A stretch of 64,000 bases of DNA from Phytoseiulus persimilis (lineage: Eukaryota; Arthropoda; Arachnida; Mesostigmata; Phytoseiidae). Positions 3,361-48,747 of the stretch are shown piece after piece (the first letter of the stretch is position 1; every line of letters starts with the position of its first letter). The DNA lies in contig CM075104.1 in NCBI GenBank assembly GCA_037576195.1, positions 8,252,775-8,316,774 of the forward strand, given 5' to 3'. The notes beneath the pieces were generated by a model. The model searched no databases, had not been told where the DNA came from, and saw nothing but the letters and a program-made list of their open reading frames with translations. Both the position numbers and the translations under genes were made by a program.

Positions 3361-3597
3361 ATTCCGGATCTCCGCCGTCCGGGTTCGCGGGCGCCAGCGT
3401 CAACCTGGAAGGTCTGAACCCCACGTCGGCGATCCTATTCCGACCTCAGTGGCCACTGTTGCCGCCGCCTTCCTTTTGGTCGGCATTGTCCGCGATAAAA
3501 GGCAGGATCGAAGCCACCCCACCCGCATTCTGGCCTCTCCTCAACTTCTACCCTTCGAGTCCGATTACGGCCGACGGACTCGTTTCGCATACTCAAG
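3361..3597 (+). CDS. Gene 1, Pro-rich N-terminal exon with a GC donor
   Basis: The exon is inferred. A long pyrimidine tract ending in ttttcag precedes 3361, and the frame stays open to a donor reading AAG|gcaagt at 3598. A GC donor with this otherwise perfect consensus is an accepted minor class. Splicing to 7779 joins G to AT in phase and gives HTQ-D-DSSSK. The encoded stretch is rich in Pro, Trp and Phe (for example [13 protein letters not shown]) and its frame stops right after the donor, as an exon end should. Alternatively, translation could begin at the in-frame ATG at 3315 (MEFLDLNPP) with no upstream intron. I prefer the acceptor because it has the same phase and the same AT start as exon 2 of the paralogue. 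Confidence 0.55.
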
Positions 3598-6500
3598 GCA
3601 AGTGATACAGGAGTCGAGGAGCAACCAATTGAGTAGCTCCGTCCGACAAGCTCGTCCACAACTTCAGTATTTTCGCCAATGATTCAGCGCTTCGCGGACA
3701 GCGCAGGGCTTCGCATCGGCAAATAGCTCGATCGTGCGCACGCTAAATATAAGACACAGAGTGACCAAAGTTACATTCGAGAGGCGCAGATGCTGGTGGT
3801 TTTCTTTGTACCGCAACTGCCGTCCGGTGCTGGCCCGCTGCTCGGAACAAGTCCCAGGAGTGCGAGTTAGCGGACGCACAATCAGCTGGAATCAGGTTAT
3901 CCTTGATTACCTCTCTCGGTCTTCTTGCAGCAAATCCTGTAGGCGGCACGACTTGGATGCTCGGCCACTTGCTCGGTAGACCGGTTAGAGGTGGTCAGCG
4001 GCCACATTCGGAATCGCCGGAGCCGGTCCAGTTCCCTCAAGTATTCGTTCGCCTTGGGCTGCGCGAACAACGGACTCCGCTAACCGGTGGACGGGTGGGA
4101 TTGCATTCGAGCGCTAGCTCGGAGCCCGATACGATTTGGCGCCATCCCCTCGGGCGACAACCGCGTCTGATACCTCCTTGTGACGATGTGTGGTGCTGTC
4201 TGTCGGCTTCAGTCCCGAAGACATCGCGCTTCGTGCCTCGCGTCTCCCGCGCGTCTTTGACTTGACTGCGCTGAGGCGGGTTCCGCTCCACGGACGGACA
4301 TCAGCCACAAACGGCTGTGCACTTTTCAACCACTTGACTGCTAATAGACTCCCGGCTCCGGCTGTGGACTCAACCTGTTTGTCTTCCGTCGGTCGTAGCC
4401 ATTCCGAGTGGGCAGTGAGCTGCGAATCGGAGGGTACCTCGGAGCGGGGACGAGACAACGCAGGGAGAGTCGAAGGGGTGTCGCGGGAAGACCGGGTGGG
4501 CAAGCCGTAGGACGCCCGGTCGACCGGCCCACCGAGCGGCTAGCGGATAGGCAACGCGCCGGCAGGCTGCGAGGGTCGGACAAACTCGATTGGTTTGAAT
4601 CCTCTCGAGGATCAGGATGATACTCCTCTTCGCTGCTGAGGAGCGAAAGGAAGGAAAATATGAGAGCGGGCGCAAAGCGAGACGGAGCGGGTAATTCTAT
4701 TTGGCCCGGAGCTCGAGGATCTTTCCAAGACAGGCCCGCAGACAGACCGACGGCCAGCTATGACTCGCGACATATTGTCCTGTCCCTCTCGGCAGATTGA
4801 AAGGGCCAATGACTGAGCATCAACCTCCTCGGATGCTTTTTTCCATGATCCTGTTTTTGGGGTCTTGGATTCAGGCTTCTGCCTCTAGAACCCTCAACCC
4901 GGGAAGGGGGGGGGGCGATCGTAGTTCCCCGAAACACGCCACGGATCCAGGACATGTTGGCAATGGATGAATGGATGCTGACCGAGACTGGAAGTGTGGC
5001 CTCCCAGGGCTCGTCCAGCGCACTTCGCTGGCAGTGGAGCGTTAGTTTGCCTCGCGGAATCGCCCCCCGAACCCTCGAGGGTGATTCCTTTCCCGGTCCT
5101 CCACTTTGTTCTGAGTGGCATCCCTGAAAACAAGGCCGCGATTCTTTCGGTACTCTCCAAGGAGTTCGAAAAAGAGAGCGAAGGGCTGGCGAGTCCGAGG
5201 CGAAAGGAGTGCGGAGCCGTCAGAGCGAATCGAACGAAAGCAAAATCAGCAGAAATCATCGACTGTGTTCTGTGGCGTGCTTTCCTCTTCGACTTATTCG
5301 TTTTCCTCCGCTCCCCTCAGAATTGATGTTTGCTTCTGCAGCTTGCTTGCCGGCCGGCCTCTTCTTCGTTTGTCTTCTCTTTCATCCTATCACGGCCGCC
5401 GTCCGGCCTCCCGGGATTCTAGATTTCTTCTCCGTCTTCCTCCCTTGTTGCTTCCTTGTTCCGGAACGGAGATTCTACGGCTCGAATTCAAACAGCTAAG
5501 AAAACTTTGCCGCGATACAGAGGTCCGACAATGGATGACAGATCACACGGTCGCACCTCCAGCGGAACTTCACCAAGAACGATCGGGAAGTCATAACGGT
5601 TTTCCCCGAGCAGCGCCGCAATCTTCCAACGGTCTGAAGGGAGAACTCGATATCTTCGAAGGGCGGACGAGGGACTGTCGGGGAGAAGCAGGATGGAGAG
5701 AGGGAACGACAAGATGAGGTGGCTGAAAAGACTACATGACCTCAGGCTGTTGACACAACTCTACTTCGTTACTACGAAAACGCAGTTGATTCTTGTTTCG
5801 TTCTATCCTGCGGCTGGCAGGCAGCCCCACCGAATGAGTCGATGTTCGGTTAGATGGGAGCAGAATGATCTAACGGACCTACGGGTGGATGGATGGATTG
5901 CTAGCTTGGCTCTTCAACTTCAGCCGCATTCCACCCTTTGCGGTCCTCGCCCGAGGCGATTCGGTGATTAAAATCATGAATGCCCGCCTACTCCTCTGCC
6001 CGTTCCACCGTCAACGACGTCGCAGCGACCTCGCTGACTAGAGAGAACATAGGGATGATGATCATTTTAAGGACAGAAAAAGGAACAGGAGTGCGAGCGG
6101 TGGGAGAAGGGCTTCACAATCAGCTGCCACCAATGTGAACGAAAATGAGACAACGAGCAAATATTTGACTGTTTCCCCGTTCGTGGTGTGCGCAGGTCTT
6201 TTCACTTGTTACTCATTTGGAAACCTCGTTCCCTGTATCGCACCCCTGGCATCAACCCCTGCAAGCCCCTCTGTTTATCCTTCCTTTCATCCATTGACTG
6301 AAGCCACACAAGGTAACCGGATTGGCCGGCTGGAATCGGACGGATGGCGAAACATCAGCGATTCGGAATTTTGTTTACTCTCCACTGGATGAAAGTGATT
6401 CAATGGAGCCACCGGGCATCTACTTGGTTACAGCCGCTCACTAAGCTGCTCAGACTGGAAGAGTTGGTCAGTGTGCCCGGAGGGTTATAGTTCATTTCGT

Positions 6501-48200: not shown

Positions 48201-48747
48201 ACGCTATCCACCCACCTACTCATTCACTCGGATACCAGACCGTATCCTTGCGAGTATTGCGGCAAGAGATTCCACCAGAAGTCCGATATGAAGAAACACA
48301 CTTATACCCACACAGGTGAGTGACGAGCTACTTCTTGTTCGGCCTTCGTATTCGACGGCTCCCGTCTGCCTCTGCCGCAGAAACTCGGAATCGGGGGAAC
48401 GTGCGGAGAAATCCGCGAAAAATCTGTCTGTCGTGAAGTCGATTTTAACTCAAGTTTTTGTCCGTGCTGCAGGCGAAAAGCCCCATCAATGCACGATTTG
48501 TGGGAAGTGCTTCAGCCAGTCATCGAATCTGATCACCCACATGAGGAAACACACGGGTTTCAAACCTTTCATGTGCAAAATCTGCAACAAGGCGTTTCAA
48601 CGCAAAATCGATCTGAAGCGACACTGTGACACGAAGCACGATCCAGCATCTGAGCAGTTTGAGGCTTCGACCCAACAAGTTGTACCACAGACGCAAGCCA
48701 GTTTCGTTGATCTGCACCGCGAAACTTCCCTCTTCAGACCCATCTAG
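45037..48747 (+). CDS. Gfi-1/Senseless-family zinc-finger repressor with SNAG motif (gene 2)
   Basis: This complete four-exon gene (45037-45205, 46029-46302, 48071-48315, 48473-48747) encodes 320 residues, with all junctions agreeing in phase. It starts [12 protein letters not shown], a SNAG-type repressor motif that in Gfi-1 and Snail proteins recruits histone-modifying co-repressors such as LSD1. An adjacent ATG at 45034 would add one Met and spoil the MPR start, so I chose 45037. An acidic stretch and PLDFS (residues 33-37, CtBP-motif-like) follow, then a Ser/Pro-rich region. Finger 1 (about 140-161) is C2HC, its last His replaced by Cys; the family's finger 2 is absent, replaced by a Pro-rich linker. 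Four canonical fingers cover about 180-285. The protein should bind DNA in the nucleus as a repressor. Which Drosophila paralogue it matches is not settled. Confidence 0.88.
46029..46302 (+). CDS. Gene 2 exon 2: Ser/Pro-rich region and first half of finger 1
   Basis: A good acceptor (ttgccttccag) precedes 46029, and the split codon G|AT gives Asp. The exon encodes [16 protein letters not shown], a Ser/Pro-rich region and [10 protein letters not shown], the Cys-bearing half of finger 1. It ends with GTAAGA at 46303. The junction to exon 3 completes a Ser codon inside the finger. Confidence 0.78.
48071..48315 (+). CDS. Gene 2 exon 3: end of finger 1, Pro-rich linker, two canonical fingers
   Basis: The acceptor is ctccctgcag. 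The exon completes finger 1 with [13 protein letters not shown], then a Pro-rich linker of about 18 residues, then [19 protein letters not shown] and [19 protein letters not shown]. It ends at HTG with GTGAGT at 48316, the same codon as in gene 1. Confidence 0.85.
48473..48747 (+). CDS. Gene 2 exon 4: last two fingers and C-terminal tail
   Basis: The exon starts after a tgctgcag acceptor and completes HTGEKPH. Fingers are [23 protein letters not shown] and [19 protein letters not shown] followed by CDTKH, the family-typical H-x4-H ending. The tail of about 35 residues is polar and ends at TAG 48745-48747. This exon aligns with the last exon of gene 1 and supports the frame correction proposed there. 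Confidence 0.88.

Follow-up and report, generated by a model that had tools for sequence, protein, structure and literature searches.

Two neighbouring genes of the Gfi-1/Senseless zinc-finger family in the mite Phytoseiulus persimilis

Layout and predicted structure of the gene pair

The window, meaning the whole 64-kb stretch of DNA that was analysed, contains two genes of the Gfi-1/Senseless family of regulators, well known from nerve and blood development. The two, here called A and B, are arranged head to tail, both on the + strand. Gene A spans 3361 to about 21.35 kb, gene B begins at about 46.0 kb and ends at 48,747, and about 24.6 kb separate the last exon of A from the first exon of B. 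Two such paralogues in this arrangement had been proposed by a sequence-only reading of the window, and the layout and the relationship are both borne out here. The predicted features are collected in Table 1. Of the 242 open frames, 10 lying in the introns of the two genes, in the interval separating them or just downstream were tried as possible further genes, and none had a Pfam match.

Gene A comprises six fingers and a PLNLS motif (7937-7951). Its 5'-most exon seen is predicted to exit through a GC donor (AAG/gcaagt at 3598-3599). The Pfam zf-C2H2 model scores finger 1 at 18.7 bits, under the curated cut-off of 25.2, and fingers 2-4 at 59.2 bits. Stops are located at 21331-21333 in the frame of finger 5 and at 21375-21377 in the frame holding the end of finger 6. 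A processed copy was ruled out as the origin of gene A since introns are present.

Gene B has five fingers by count, with finger 2 missing and finger 1 of the CCHC type. Its first exon begins either at an ATG at 45992 or, following an acceptor-like CAG at 46026-46028, at 46029. Finger 1 is divided by a phase-2 intron (46302/48071) that is absent from A, and Pfam is blind to the split finger. Finger 1 of B nevertheless matches finger 1 of A (42% across 26 residues, with E 0.006 against a small set; 11/24 residues identical), so gene B would descend from a gene that had finger 1. The exons preceding finger 1 in A and B do not match each other. The missing finger 2 of B and the frame breaks of A described below did not appear in the sequence-only reading.

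Table 1. Predicted features of genes A and B, in positions of the window
Feature	Position	Strand	Basis
Gene A, 5'-most predicted exon seen	3361..3597	+	inferred open frame DSGSPPSGF...SHTQ, phase 1 in and out
Gene A, predicted exon with PLNLS motif, polyQ stretch and fingers 1-4	7779..8566	+	frame reading, Pfam zf-C2H2
Gene A, frame break 1, between fingers 1 and 2	8290..8312	+	89-nt spacing of the finger starts, not divisible by 3
Gene A, phase-1 intron in HTG/EKPH linker, 12,537 bp	8567..21103	+	predicted
Gene A, predicted last exon, fingers 5-6	21104..21377	+	Pfam zf-C2H2, finger 5 only
Gene A, frame break 2, inside finger 6	21236..21248	+	QRKVD in one frame, LRRHKETQH in another
Gene B, predicted exon, first half of finger 1	45992 or 46029..46302	+	no Pfam match on exon
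Gene B, predicted exon with second half of CCHC finger 1, linker replacing finger 2 and fingers 3-4	48071..48315	+	frame reading, Pfam
Gene B, phase-1 intron in HTG/EKPH linker, 157 bp	48316..48472	+	predicted
Gene B, predicted last exon, fingers 5-6 and stop	48473..48747	+	frame reading, Pfam

Family membership, a third gene and the linker intron

The genome holds a third family gene, C (C3:33678272-33678707, - strand), which lies on a different chromosome-sized piece, unlinked to A and B, and was not mentioned in the earlier reading. Gene C shows fingers 3-6 only, and no fingers 1-2 were found in the 50 kb around it (about 29 kb upstream). All six matches of at least 60% identity among the matches listed fall within A, B or C; the search scored 150 of 626 candidates and could miss a diverged further member. 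Nine stretches of viral contigs contained no relative. Among 25 pattern-matching stretches of prokaryote contigs there was one relative (on a Dorea MAG contig, 40%, query residues 13-63), which was not counted as family.

The contact residues of fingers 3, 4 and 5 (RSTT, QSDK and QSNT) are the same in all three genes. The linkers HSDTRP (fingers 3-4) and HTG/EKPH (fingers 4-5, across the intron) are exact in A and B; C reads HSDIRP. Across fingers 3-4, A and B are identical at 51 of 52 residues, and a 22-residue stretch common to both is an exact match in the Gfi-1 structure 2KMK, the best PDB match; taken together, these two results exclude chance resemblance. Finger stretches of 20 and 10 residues are also found in 2KMK, with the same helices of fingers 3-5. 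A, B and C thus share the contact helices, the type of linker and the predicted finger 4-5 linker intron of the Gfi-1/Pag-3/Senseless family, and A and B are paralogues. The near identity of fingers 3-4 could also stem from old gene conversion.

The interruption of both genes at the same codon of the HTG/EKPH linker, also reported earlier, was found again: the glycine is split after its first base in A (G 8566, GG 21104-21105) and in B (G 48315, GC 48473-48474). This intron had been read as support for local duplication, an argument that fails because unlinked gene C has a predicted phase-1 intron at the same place and human GFI1B carries one as well, the variant c.814+1G>C (Gly272fs) placing a phase-1 intron at the matching position just before finger 5 (PMC5368270). 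On these predicted gene models the intron is ancestral and provides no evidence of local duplication. The phase-1 G/AT junction proposed N-terminal to the fingers of both genes holds for A, where there are two (3360/3361 and 7778/7779), and is doubtful for B, the frame of which also offers the ATG start. The residues around the junctions of A and B do not match each other, and the junction is weak evidence for local duplication.

Outside the fingers, the PLNLS motif of A has no counterpart in the exons of B that were seen, and the vicinity of C offers just a PIDLS string, located some 5 kb upstream outside any known exon. PLNLS is reported in Senseless (PMC6777938), as the motif through which it recruits CtBP. 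A strict SNAG-type start pattern, which would miss a divergent SNAG, occurs at two places genome-wide, neither of them near A, B or C. The exons are presumably spliced as drawn. All three proteins would bind one AATC-type site through fingers 3-5 and may differ in recruitment through regions outside the fingers, with PLNLS available to A and not seen in B.

Gene A resembles vertebrate GFI1/GFI1B in its six-finger order and identical helices of fingers 3-5, and the linker intron matches that of GFI1B. The mite genes differ from the vertebrate ones in that none of the three carries the strict SNAG pattern, and B and C have fewer fingers. A short form of GFI1B lacking fingers 1-2 is described as arising by exon skipping (PMC5368270), and B and C are like it in outcome only.

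The broken reading frame of gene A

The frame of gene A is broken twice in this assembly (Table 1), and no single frame reads through it. Either the sequenced animals carry fresh damage to the gene or the assembly is wrong at both sites. The conservation of its fingers shows that constraint on the gene lasted until a very recent time.

That the breaks are real, with gene A a pseudogene of very recent origin or the sequenced stock carrying a null allele, is plausible at somewhat under even odds. The frame is kept in 164/164 adjacent finger pairs from 35 loci besides A and B (gene C included), a control that detects only breaks lying between two intact fingers, and five HSP70 matches that extend from profile position 1 to 598 or 599 have an uninterrupted frame. 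Against this background, two breaks within about 0.93 kb would arise by error with P about 0.007, calculated from the upper 95% rate. The assembly also lacks a second copy of the gene A exon, with the exception of a 74-base, 75% match on C1. However, the splice-like sites and fingers of A are otherwise conserved, so the loss would have to be very recent, and a locally poor consensus would escape all of these controls. Moreover, in a wider scan of finger gaps of 130-269 nt, 14/20 pairs are in frame and 6/20 are shifted; all six shifted pairs have GT and AG in the gap, a weak sign of introns, and one of them is the linker intron of gene C. If real, the breaks would remove a family member for which sens-2 is a possible counterpart in the fly, where sens-2 is needed for larval nervous-system form (PMC11373656). 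In Tribolium, sens is required for the hindgut (PMC4299277).

Age and origin of the pair

The preferred reading, to which a probability of roughly two in three is assigned, is that an old tandem duplication made A and B, which have been neighbours since, with the third member C elsewhere. Fourfold sites differ at 19/24 for A-B, 17/25 for A-C and 16/21 for B-C and look saturated in all three pairs; this saturation argues that the pair is not a recent copy. Residues are identical at 84/94, 78/94 and 72/94 positions, respectively, and the combination would correspond to old splits under strong constraint. Gene A would be the slowly evolving six-finger member, of the Gfi-1/Sens-2 type by finger count, and B a derived partner, with finger 2 lost and finger 1 altered to the CCHC type. 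The question raised earlier of whether the pair is old or recent is thus answered in part: an old split fits better, given fourfold saturation and the linkage in Daphnia, and a recent copy is rejected.

The tree was built from the family genes of this genome and approximate outgroup sequences, Sens among them. It groups A with B weakly (SH-aLRT 72.8, bootstrap 55), with branches of 0.022 for A, 0.209 for B and 0.280 for C, and gives no clear grouping of B with Sens. Within fingers 3-5 (81 residues), a single site supports A and B against C plus the approximate GFI1, and neither alternative split has any; when 108 residues are taken, two sites support A and B.

Among the matches listed, the only published linked pair of sens-family genes found was that of Daphnia pulex, in which GPS-A and GPS-B lie about 19 kb apart on scaffold 106 (388,895-391,820 and 410,992-414,351; PMC2889900). 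By analogy with these linked genes, an old arthropod pair is possible. The account of the Daphnia pair differs from the mite genes in that fingers 1 and 2 are apparently kept in both members, and its authors interpret the pair as a recent Daphnia duplication (PMC2889900). That interpretation and the weak grouping of A and B apart from C both stand against an old pair. If the pair is as old as the arthropods, its linkage offers an independent handle on the date of the sens/sens-2 split, and the Daphnia pair, filed as a recent copy, is open to rereading; the mite pair is a useful if modest example from which to trace the split of the Gfi-1/Senseless family.

Two sharper forms of the old-pair reading differ in when the duplication occurred. 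The first, a tentative proposal that falls a little short of an even chance, takes B as a copy of A from the mite or parasitiform lineage, old enough for synonymous saturation and followed by fast divergence. The weak grouping of A and B, the long branch of B, the near-identical fingers 3-4 and the linkage all agree with it, but saturation sets no upper age limit, the finger-1 intron of B is missing in A and a linked pair exists in Daphnia as well.

In the second, which is rather unlikely, A would be the arthropod sens-2 and B the arthropod sens, the two having stayed adjacent since the ancestor of arthropods, and C would be a further lineage-specific copy. It draws on the Daphnia linkage, on synonymous saturation and on finger number, Sens-2 being described with six fingers (PMC11373656) and Sens with four (PMC2889900), so that A is six-fingered like Sens-2 and B has fewer fingers like Sens. 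However, C, with fingers 3-6 only, is nearer by count to Sens than B is, B having reached five through another loss, that of finger 2 only. The comparison with an approximate Sens sequence is similarly divided: over fingers 3-5, B differs at 8/81 residues and C at 13/81, but over 108 residues each differs at 21. Six fingers seem to remain in each of the Daphnia genes, and PLNLS, a Senseless feature, is found in A and not seen in B, the reverse of what is expected. The assignment of A and B to sens-2 and sens is tentative, all the more so with three family genes and not two.

The two finger classes of Drosophila Senseless and Senseless-2 are like those seen here, and the two fly genes are not known to be neighbours. 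A still less probable extension, a long shot, would see the placing of a six-finger gene and a finger-poor one head to tail as an old arthropod arrangement that persisted in Daphnia and in this genome and was dispersed in flies. The finger-poor partner would then be the source of the Senseless type, and here the six-finger partner would just have been broken, leaving two finger-poor relatives.

A recent local copy, as linkage, a common strand and near-identical fingers 3-4 might suggest, is highly improbable, with the A-B fourfold differences no fewer than in pairs with unlinked C, finger 1 identical at only 11/24 residues and the preceding exons unmatched; only an extreme substitution rate would reconcile it with the saturation.

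In Heliconius, sens-2 adjoins rpusd2 (PMC12136153); this genome has four places with a pseudouridine synthase, none of them close to A/B or C, the one on C4 being about 2.85 Mb off and that on C3 about 15 Mb off. C. elegans PAG-3, of the same family, also has five fingers but is described as lacking finger 1 (PMC2889900), whereas B lacks finger 2. In the mite, one genome lays out finger loss from six to five to four with the DNA-reading fingers fixed.

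Gene models and a third family member

The assembly comprises 181 Mb in 127 contigs, of which contigs C1-C4 (54.7, 52.0, 38.9 and 28.1 Mb) together hold ~96%. The exon models of genes A and B are predicted solely from open frames and splice-like sites, and the gene A exon 1 donor is, as predicted, of the GC type (AAG/gcaagt). The analysis upholds both genes and their arrangement. In line with the sequence-only reading, the two Gfi-1/Senseless-family genes lie head to tail on the plus strand, ~24.6 kb apart, and both are split at the same codon of the HTG/EKPH linker (between zinc fingers 4 and 5), the glycine codon being cut after its first base in each.

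Gene A encodes finger 1, finger 2 and fingers 3-4, followed by the intron and fingers 5-6. In gene B, finger 1 is of the CCHC type and is interrupted by a phase-2 intron (46302/48071), 16 residues occupy the expected place of finger 2, and fingers 3-6 follow. Identity between A and B is 11/24 residues in finger 1, 23/23 in finger 3, 22/23 in finger 4, 18/23 in finger 5 and 15/24 in finger 6. Because Pfam matched no family on the first exon of gene B and scored finger 1 of gene A below its cut-off, the call of finger 1 in gene B relies on alignment to gene A (42% over 26 residues, E 0.006) and reading by eye.

A whole-genome search with fingers 3-6 of gene B returned at least 168 matches, with 150 of 626 candidates scored. 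Among the matches listed, all six rows with at least 60% identity fall in gene A, gene B or a third gene, C; the next identity listed, 55%, belongs to a FEZF-like gene on contig C83. Gene C has a phase-1 linker intron of 112 bp, in the same position as in A and B, and an acceptor-like site directly before finger 3. Neither fingers 1-2 nor upstream exons were found in the 50 kb around the gene (~29 kb of it upstream).

Coordinates of the features (window positions unless a contig is named)
Feature	Location	Strand	Evidence
Window	G000:C4:8252775-8316774	forward	
Gene A exons	3361-3597; 7779-8566; from 21104	+	open frames, splice-like sites
Gene B exons	45992 or 46029 to 46302; 48071-48315; 48473-48747	+	open frames, splice-like sites
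Gene C, third Gfi-1-family gene, fingers 3-6 only	G000:C3:33678272-33678707	-	genome search with gene B fingers 3-6
PLNLS motif, gene A	7937	+	motif scan
Strict SNAG-type starts	G000:C1:35413815; C2:28600081		
Hydrolase exons	58336-59875	+	
His/Gly-rich frame	60865-61797	+	
29-base tandem repeat	53348-53501		
45-base minisatellite	C4:8232775-8235065		

Age of the pair and the linker intron

Over 94 comparable codons, A and B share 84 residues and differ at 19/24 fourfold sites, A and C share 78 (17/25) and B and C share 72 (16/21). The NG86 synonymous distance is undefined in all three whole comparisons, and YN00 yields one for A-B alone (1.67). The A-B split looks old, with the protein under strong constraint, because its synonymous divergence appears as saturated as that of the pairs with unlinked gene C. 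To the extent that synonymous sites can tell, a recent copy is excluded, and the best reading is that A and B are an old tandem pair.

The linker intron, previously taken to support local duplication, fails as evidence for it: unlinked gene C has the same intron, which therefore is no special bond between A and B. Excerpts of PMC5368270, a GFI1B review, describe a variant, c.814+1G>C (Gly272fs, 330-residue protein), in which 58 C-terminal residues are affected and finger 5 is deleted. Since 814 = 3 x 271 + 1, the human GFI1B intron cuts a glycine codon after its first base, immediately ahead of finger 5. Judged by residue count and the GFI1B sequence, Gly272 is the glycine of HTG/EKPH. The human intron and that of A, B and C are in the same place and the same phase. 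Since gene C and human GFI1B both have it there, the simplest reading is an intron already present in the common ancestor of vertebrates and this arthropod.

A family tree was built with IQ-TREE (LG+G4, 108 columns) from A, B, C and provisional sequences of human GFI1, GFI1B, fly Sens and worm PAG-3. With these provisional outgroups A groups with B at 72.8/55 (SH-aLRT/bootstrap), a lead only; GFI1 and GFI1B join at 85.9/77 and C and Sens only at 27/33. Branch lengths are 0.022 (A), 0.209 (B) and 0.280 (C), and gene A is, judged by sequence, the conservative member.

The pair is a further case in the known Gfi-1/Senseless family. Like this mite, Daphnia pulex has two linked family genes, ~19 kb apart on scaffold 106 and taken as a recent duplication in the excerpted text of PMC2889900; the two pairs may go back to a single old arrangement or have arisen as independent tandem copies. 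The table of that source has one fly gene (Sens), its text being without Sens-2, which has six fingers according to excerpts of PMC11373656. A and B may be sens-2 and sens, respectively; in favour of this, 8/81 residues of fingers 3-5 differ between B and the provisional Sens sequence, against 13/81 for C. However, B and C each differ from that sequence at 21 of 108 residues, the genome has three family genes rather than a simple pair, the four-finger count of Sens is matched by C and not B, and PLNLS, reported for Senseless, sits in A.

DNA contacts and partner motifs

In all three genes the contact positions (-1, 2, 3, 6) read RSTT in finger 3, QSDK in finger 4 and QSNT in finger 5, and helices of these fingers are also present in the rat Gfi-1 structure 2KMK. 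Since these contact residues are identical, the three proteins would be expected to bind the same DNA sites, and their partners would differ. The GFI1/GFI1B site is TAAATCAC(T/A)GC(A/T) in excerpts of PMC5368270.

Senseless is reported to recruit CtBP through PLNLS (excerpts of PMC6777938). The motif scan (P, then L/M/I/V/E, N/D, L, S/T) placed PLNLS in gene A and found no motif of this type in the known exons of gene B. PVNLS lies within the long intron of gene A and PIDLS ~5 kb upstream of gene C, both in no known exon; given the latter, gene C could well carry such a motif. Genome-wide, two places match a strict SNAG-like start pattern, that on C1 ~5 kb from the C2H2 fingers of another gene, which is Snail/Scratch-like by its motif. 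Neither place is at A, B or C, in agreement with excerpts of PMC2889900 stating that SNAG is known only from vertebrate family members.

Frame breaks in gene A and nearby features

Fingers 1 and 2 of gene A are in different frames (89 nt start to start), and in finger 6 the frame shifts after QRKVD. In a control blind to breaks inside a finger, every one of 164 neighbouring finger pairs (spaced 60-129 nt) at 35 other loci, including gene C, keeps frame; the loci of genes A and B (L006, L009, L010 and L011) were left out, as was L020, which overlaps L012. Five HSP70 matches (among 27) spanning profile positions 1 to 598 or 599 are open throughout. At the upper 95% rate that follows from 0 breaks in ~22.8 kb, two breaks within 0.93 kb have P ~0.007. 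A scan widened to spacings of 130-269 nt (14 pairs in frame, 6 out) decides nothing, because all six out-of-frame pairs have GT and AG somewhere between them, one being the gene C intron. The assembly holds no second copy of the gene A exon for comparison. The breaks may be real recent damage or a local consensus error; whichever holds, the conserved fingers show, at the level of sequence, a gene under selection until very lately.

Downstream of gene B, alpha/beta hydrolase exons with GHSLGG score above the Pfam Abhydrolase_1 cut-off in two of three stretches, the third having no match; by resemblance the gene is ABHD4/5-like. The 310-residue open frame beyond it is very His/Gly-rich, has a hydrophobic segment close to where it starts and no Pfam match, and is possibly a secreted His-rich protein. 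A 29-base unit is repeated in tandem (5.3 copies, 97% matches), and a 45-base minisatellite of ~51 copies lies outside the window, ~18-20 kb upstream. Parts of the latter are open in one frame, with a repeat like GGVIPRPIWPLLSNS, and similar matches occur at the end of another stretch, L026.
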